A stretch of 50,569 bases of DNA, taken from Spirochaetales bacterium (GTDB lineage: Bacteria > Spirochaetota > GWE2-31-10). The notes beneath the pieces were generated by a model, which worked only from the letters and a program-made list of their open reading frames with translations, had not been told where the DNA came from and made no database searches. The stretch spans positions 1-50,569 of the forward strand of contig JAGANG010000018.1 in the NCBI GenBank assembly GCA_017624275.1, written 5' to 3'. Positions 49,581-50,569 of the stretch are shown piece after piece; the stretch's first letter is position 1; each line of letters opens with the position of its first letter. The translations under genes and the position numbers were made by a program.

Positions 49581-49606
49581 TTTTTCTTCTTTGTTTTTTT
49601 GCTTTG

Positions 49607-49641
49607 ACCGCTATGTTCTGTAGGATATAGCGGTTTTTTTT
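49607..49641 (+). terminator. Terminator of the chemoreceptor gene
   Basis: CCGCTAT (49608-49614) pairs with ATAGCGG (49627-49633) around a 12-base loop and is followed by eight T. It starts 27 bases after the stop codon. Confidence 0.9.
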
Positions 49642-49787: not shown

Positions 49788-49951
49788 AGGCAGGCTTGCC
49801 TGCGAAAGAAGCCCCAAACCTGCAAAGGTTTATAAAACTTTAAACTAAAGTTGCATTTCTGGGCGGACTTGTCCGCAGATAAAGCCTTGAACCTACGTGG
49901 GTTTATAAAACTTTAAACCAAAGTTGCATTTTAACGCCGGGTTACCCCGGC
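49788..49951. repeat. 73-bp tandem units built of hairpins
   Basis: Units begin at 49788, 49861 and 49934. Each opens with a GC-rich hairpin (GCAGGC/GCCTGC at 49790-49803, GCGGAC/GTCCGC at 49863-49876, GCCGGG/CCCGGC at 49936-49951). Units 1 and 2 also share an AACC..GGTT hairpin and a 32-base core (49827-49858 and 49900-49931) that differs at one base and itself folds (AACTTT/AAAGTT). The third unit keeps the first hairpin and then diverges. Confidence 0.85.
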
Positions 49952-50019: not shown

Positions 50020-50047
50020 TTGACAGTTTTTTTTTTTTTTTTACAAT
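50020..50047 (+). promoter_or_regulatory. Promoter with 16-T tract as spacer
   Basis: TTGACA (50020-50025), then G and 15 T, then TACAAT (50042-50047), whose first T is the 16th base of the T run (50027-50042). Spacer is 16 bases. The DUF4469 start is 45 bases downstream. Loss or gain of a T would change the -35/-10 spacing. Confidence 0.65.
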
Positions 50048-50091
50048 CATTCTAATTTAAATTCATAAATAAGATAATTAGGAGTATAAAA

Positions 50092-50569
50092 ATGGCAAAC
50101 AATCAATGGCAGGTCTACCTGCGACCGAACACTCTCACAAAGGACAACGACAAAGACTGTATCGCCGATGTTCATCTAAACGGTGCGACACTGACAAATG
50201 AAGACGTAGCACATAGAATCGTAAGCGAACGAAGCGAATACCGCAAAGATACGATTCTTAACATCTTAAATTTACGTGACAATGCAGTAAAAGCATTCAT
50301 CCAAGAATGCTCAAGCTTCCGTGACGGACTTGTACAAATCACGCCACGTGTCAGCGGAGTATGGGAAAACGAAGCCTCAAACTTCGACCCGGCAGTACAC
50401 AAACGCACTGTAGACCTTGTACCTACGGCAGACCTGCGAAACACATTAGACGCAATATCTGTAAAAGTCATGGGAACAACATCCGCCGCAGCCCGAATAT
50501 CAGCAATCACTGACAGTGCAACGGGACTCAAAGACGGCACAATTACCATCGGAGATGACATCATCATCG
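50092..50569 (+). CDS. DUF4469/HU-like DNA-binding domain protein, C-terminus beyond window
   Basis: ATG at 50092 follows GGAG at seven bases, and the frame is open for 159 codons to the window end. The protein starts MANNQWQVYLRPNTLTKDND and has ATLTNEDVAHRIVSERSEYR, ITPRVSGVWENEASNFDP and LKDGTITIGDDIII. This matches the DUF4469 proteins with an HU/IHF-like N-terminal fold that are common in Treponema and Bacteroidetes. Their function is not established. Codon use (CGA, CTC, ACG, CCG) and GC content are higher than in the neighbouring genes, which may mean recent transfer or high expression. Extra reading beyond the edge is needed for the C-terminal domain. Confidence 0.8.
   Translation, partial: MANNQWQVYLRPNTLTKDNDKDCIADVHLNGATLTNEDVAHRIVSERSEYRKDTILNILNLRDNAVKAFIQECSSFRDGLVQITPRVSGVWENEASNFDPAVHKRTVDLVPTADLRNTLDAISVKVMGTTSAAARISAITDSATGLKDGTITIGDDIII

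Follow-up and report, generated by a model that had tools for sequence, protein, structure and literature searches.

The window, i.e., the whole 50,569-nucleotide stretch of DNA that was analysed, ends inside a gene coding for an HU-type DNA-binding protein, which is preceded by a putative promoter with a homopolymeric spacer. The features of the locus are listed below; the two boxes, the spacer, the homopolymer, and the ribosome-binding site were read from the sequence, and the label of the chemotaxis-receptor-like gene was derived from its sequence without a family search.

49606..49635, plus strand: terminator-like hairpin 3' of the upstream chemotaxis-receptor-like gene
50020..50025, plus strand: -35 box, TTGACA
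50026..50041, plus strand: 16-bp spacer, G (50026) followed by T15
50027..50042, plus strand: T16 homopolymer, the final T of which is base 1 of the -10 box
50042..50047, plus strand: -10 box, TACAAT
50080..50084, plus strand: ribosome-binding site, AGGAG
50092..50569, plus strand: HU-DNA_bdg gene (PF14848 at residues 6-128), truncated by the contig end

The element at 50020-50047 reads TTGACA-G-T15-TACAAT, just as described in the initial annotation, which had also counted the full run as 16 T. It matches 11 of the 12 sigma-70 hexamer positions, and its chance expectation in the window is 0.00 (100 dinucleotide shuffles). The hairpin sets the chemotaxis-receptor-like gene apart from the promoter at 50020, and 44 nt lie between the end of the -10 box and the ATG of the HU-DNA_bdg gene. 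The earlier naming of the product as a DUF4469/HU protein, as distinct from the usual surface antigen, agrees with the HU-DNA_bdg (PF14848) match of the window gene and with its full-length paralogue on contig C22, in which PF14848 is combined with DUF4469. Two 70-nt direct repeats (77% identical) are located upstream of the HU gene at 49789-49931, and the HU copies on contigs C22, C40, and C70 are preceded by intergenic DNA related to this segment. Contigs C49 and C40 end within HU genes and C70 ends just short of one, so that the assembly is broken at this family. A literature search on the HU-HIG/DUF4469 family returned nothing useful.

The element belongs to a class of at least 33 homopolymer-spacer promoters, 19 of them in the window's genome (a Spirochaetota draft of 2.58 Mb) and 14 in the one congener compared, Spirochaetales bacterium HAN109. 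The sites were collected from all T runs of at least 13 and all runs of 10-12 listed in both genomes, with extra sites read; the counts are lower bounds, since the two drafts are 84% and 86% complete, and assembled homopolymer lengths may be off by one base. A 16S search of the window's genome gave no hit. In this genome, there are 12 copies of the string TTGACAG-T14 and 12 exact matches to the pattern TTGACA(G/T)T16ACA; the latter has nine matches in HAN109. A wider pattern retrieved 13 sites in the window's genome and nine in HAN109 but had no matches in 98 further genomes of the phylum; a reversed control pattern gave no exact matches in the window's genome.

A phylum-wide distribution of the element was rejected: the T form is present in two of 100 genomes of the phylum, and the A form is sporadic (9 of 393 genomes in a phylum-wide search). 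Single poly-A-spacer promoters were recorded in other Spirochaetota, e.g., at loci L107 (genome G008) and L106 (genome G003), and one of these precedes a tRNA-like gene, indicating that such spacers can serve housekeeping genes. Among the 84,980 species searched, HAN109 and one Elusimicrobia genome, the uncultured SRR10912534_bin.120, were the only ones with more than one copy of the T13+ form. The Elusimicrobia genome harbors three TTGACA-T14-C-TACAAT promoters (L043, 6450-6474; L062, 3076-3100; and L049, minus strand), each located before a type IV pilin-like gene, and is apparently an independent instance of the same architecture. Viral spread of the element was also considered and rejected, since the T13+ pattern had no matches in 2.9 million viral contigs.

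The spacer is 16 bp long at 25 of the 33 sites, 15 bp at five, and 17 bp at three, so all members fall within the 15-19 bp spacing typical of sigma-70 promoters. The -35 box is exactly TTGACA, as in the window, at 28 sites; the -10 box contains TACA in all cases but one (32/33), its position 5 being mostly A. Of the two bases conserved in the sigma-70 box TATAAT, the A at position 2 is always present (33/33), whereas position 6 is unconserved (T in 13/33). The sense-strand tract consists of T at 29 sites and of A at four (contigs C6, C7, and C75 of the window's genome and C126 of HAN109), suggesting that the homopolymer character is kept rather than one sequence, and only one tract of the 33 is interrupted in the middle. 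Ordinary promoters, sampled from both genomes with the pattern TTGACA-N15-17-TANA, are mainly of the TTGACA-N17-TATA type, with 52 cases at spacer 17 vs. nine at 16 and 11 at 15 among the approximately 150 matches listed. Hence, the class is set apart from ordinary promoters by both spacer length and -10 sequence.

In both genomes, A/T runs dwindle by a length of 12-13 nucleotides and then form a second peak, mostly at 15-17. The window's genome contains 13, 4, 1, 0, 0, 3, 13, and 4 runs of 10 to 17 nucleotides, respectively, and none longer. Extrapolation from the short runs predicts 0.1 second-peak runs in this genome vs. 20 observed; a rougher estimate, scaled up from the window, amounts to 2.7 long runs, which is still far below 20. 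Nearly all runs of at least 14 in the two genomes (33/34) follow a TTGACA-like box, i.e., 19 of the 20 second-peak runs in the window's genome and all 14 such runs (lengths 14 to 18) in HAN109, where one is cut by a contig end before the -10 box. The sole long run outside the class, a T15 tract without TTGACA (locus L078, positions 1852-1866 of contig C17 in the window's genome), precedes a glutamate-dehydrogenase-like gene.

The distance from the -10 box to the start codon is 31-44 nt in 26 of the 31 readable cases. The products of approximately 25 of the 31 genes that could be read are lipoproteins, exported proteins, or membrane proteins, as judged from a lipobox, signal-like, or membrane N-terminus by a simple pattern and hydrophobicity check and reading by eye rather than by a trained predictor. 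Among them are a family of small proteins with 11 members, mostly lipoproteins with the motif CTAAGVECGLIGKWE, as well as CsgG-like, CotH, and BspA-type LRR or List_Bact_rpt proteins; the remaining targets are four HU/DUF4469 genes, one GTPase gene, and one Cas3 gene, in the tract of which there is an interrupting A. The element is absent before three further HU paralogues in the window's genome. The class thereby resembles the phase-variable homopolymer-spacer promoters in having a homopolymer between the -35 and -10 boxes and surface or other variable genes as targets, the window's own gene being an exception in the latter respect. An integration or recombination site was rejected as an explanation, given the near-constant distance at which the element faces a gene and the mostly unrelated flanks. 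The HU-DNA_bdg protein was likewise rejected as a general regulator, since none was found in HAN109, which has the promoters.

One-base length differences between close paralogues were observed. The paralogues on contigs C63 and C17 encode proteins that are 79% identical, and their promoters differ by one T, this being the sole gap over ~500 aligned bases of promoter and gene. The HU copies on C40 (T15) and C70 (T16) are also one T apart, and their upstream flanks are 85% identical. Such differences indicate that the tract length does change; the narrow 15-17 bp range of the spacers, in turn, suggests a strong constraint on length. A homologous pair across the two species, with 45% protein identity, has exactly T16 in both, and a CsgG-like pair has kept the homopolymer with spacers of 16 and 15. 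From this pattern, both slippage and strong selection on length would appear to operate.

The favoured reading, to which a probability of roughly 50% is assigned, is that of a promoter class specific to this lineage, the spacers of which can slip around a set length of 16 bp; the class probably forms a graded phase-variation (contingency) regulon. Its members would be genus-specific sigma-70-type promoters with a strong -35 box, TTGACA, a non-consensus -10 box, TACAAN, and a nearly pure A/T homopolymer held near 16 bp as the spacer. They are predicted to be active mostly before genes of lipoproteins and exported proteins, along with a few DNA-binding HU/DUF4469 genes, e.g., that at 50092. With a long homopolymer as the spacer, each locus would independently gain or lose one base by replication slippage within the population, so that the two boxes would come to lie 15, 16, or 17 bp apart and transcription would change stepwise. 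Taken together, the loci would make up a contingency system that is graded, spread over the genome, and directed mainly at the cell surface.

This reading is favoured by the recurrence of the element at 33 sites in two species, the two-peaked distribution of run lengths, in which the long runs are almost all part of promoters, the consistent orientation and distance to the start codon, and the predominance of lipoproteins and exported proteins among the targets. The occurrence of spacers of 15, 16, and 17 bp, the one-T differences (C63/C17 and C40/C70), and the use of both poly-T and poly-A also speak for it. Arguing against it are the tight length distribution, including the T16 pair shared by the two species, the far wider range of known drifting T tracts (T5-T22 in Helicobacter pylori sabA), and possible one-base assembly errors. 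Such spacers need not switch, as implied by the poly-A spacer that another spirochaete has upstream of a tRNA-like gene, and in Escherichia coli libraries 16- and 17-bp spacers are approximately equal in strength, so a one-base slip might do little. The slippage-switch promoter proposed in the initial annotation is retained in part. A homopolymer-spacer promoter before the HU-DNA_bdg gene is almost certain, and the close paralogues differ by one base, as expected from slippage. At the same time, it is no single-locus oddity but one of at least 19 such promoters genome-wide, mostly preceding lipoprotein or exported-protein genes, and on/off drift is disfavoured by the narrow spacer range.

As the main alternative, the tracts may represent fixed-length structural promoters, held at 16 for strength or co-ordinated control (e.g., by supercoiling), with slippage as a cost devoid of function; this explanation is plausible, if short of probable. 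Poly(dA)/poly(dT) is stiff and over-wound, with about 10.0-10.1 bp per turn. With twist values taken from general knowledge, a 16-bp A/T tract rotates by ~576 degrees vs. ~583 degrees for 17 bp of ordinary DNA, so the over-wound tract would give nearly the same angle between the -35 and -10 boxes as an ordinary 17-bp spacer. This match is in line with the modal spacer of 16 bp vs. 17 bp in ordinary promoters of the same genomes, and the interchange of poly-A and poly-T, the length kept in the two-species pair, and the poly-A spacer before the tRNA-like gene fit a structural role as well. However, rigidity needs no such purity as a single mid-tract interruption in 33, the targets are typical of phase variation, and 8 of the 33 spacers differ from 16 bp. 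Sequence alone cannot tell the contingency and structural readings apart. It is tentatively suggested, with some doubt, that the homopolymer spacer constitutes a general promoter class acting as a per-gene dial in over a dozen mostly surface genes per genome, in which each gene has its own slippable, over-wound 16-bp A/T tract in place of the usual 17 bp and poly-A and poly-T are interchangeable.

It is unlikely that a dedicated factor (an alternative sigma or activator) reads TTGACA and TACA across the A/T tract, making the genes a conventional regulon. The prevalence of TACA with an unconserved position 6, vs. TATA in ordinary promoters, would suit such a factor, but the -35 box is that of ordinary sigma-70 promoters, the exchange of poly-T for poly-A makes base-specific reading of the tract improbable, and the HU-DNA_bdg protein cannot be the general factor, as none was found in HAN109. 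Chance, an assembly artefact, or a functionless spreading repeat is a highly improbable explanation: although the assemblies are drafts, with several sites close to contig ends and some flanks common to paralogues, it is already contradicted by the conservation of the element in both species, whose genomes were assembled separately and whose flanks are mostly unrelated, and the bimodal run lengths and the consistent distance and orientation to start codons also oppose it.

Under the contingency reading, the class would work most like three known systems, two of which are precedents for tract-controlled transcription and the third for a variable tract in a spacer. According to the account of Citti and Wise (1995) given in PMC10502178, every member of the vlp lipoprotein family of Mycoplasma hyorhinis has a homopolymeric A tract in its promoter, and changes in tract length switch transcription. 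Homopolymer promoters before lipoprotein genes are a shared trait; the spirochaete class differs in phylum and proteins, in using A or T, in having at least two thirds of its members at one length, and in including non-surface targets, and its switching is predicted. In Treponema pallidum, also a spirochaete, the tp0126 and tpr promoters have poly-G tracts of about 7-11; that of tp0126 lies between the -35 and -10 boxes as a part of the spacer, and transcription is best at a total spacing of 17 (PMC7864442); here, the whole spacer is A/T, the set point is 16, and many more loci share one architecture. The poly-A tract between the predicted -35 and -10 boxes of Chlamydia trachomatis lpxC, with A11/A12 mixtures in reads (PMC4514472), is also an A/T homopolymer spacer, but a shorter one at a single locus and outside any promoter class. 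In H. pylori, the long T tract of sabA, ranging from T5 to T22 between strains, tunes the adhesin promoter stepwise via DNA geometry, changing how the core promoter is aligned with UP-like elements (PMC4081817); in contrast to this rheostat, the spirochaete tract is the spacer itself. The class is distinct by its scale, A/T tracts in both orientations, a shared 16-bp set point, and the TACA box. No description of it was found in a literature search that left out most subscription journals.

So far, homopolymer-spacer promoters have been known as single cases or from individual gene families, mainly of pathogens. In this uncultured genus of spirochaetes, each draft genome has 14-19 loci that share a single A/T spacer architecture and precede several unrelated gene families; they provide a natural series (15, 16, and 17 bp; poly-A vs. 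poly-T) for testing the effect of spacer geometry on transcription. Should the tracts be subject to slippage within the population, these loci would amount to a large, distributed system of surface variation discovered from sequence alone, in which small copying slips in a run of ~16 nt could adjust the expression of many surface genes.

A causal loss of mismatch repair was rejected: mutS is present in both genomes, the copy in the window's genome merely having an early stop near the C-terminus. This stop (locus L105, G000:C41:75400-78500) removes a C-terminal tail of ~60 residues, which is retained in HAN109 and includes the motif NLFDF, which may be a clamp-binding site. In HAN109, a lipoprotein gene behind a T16 promoter (locus L025, contig C13, near 21199) has an apparent frameshift near its start, in an A/T-rich stretch directly 3' of the ATG.
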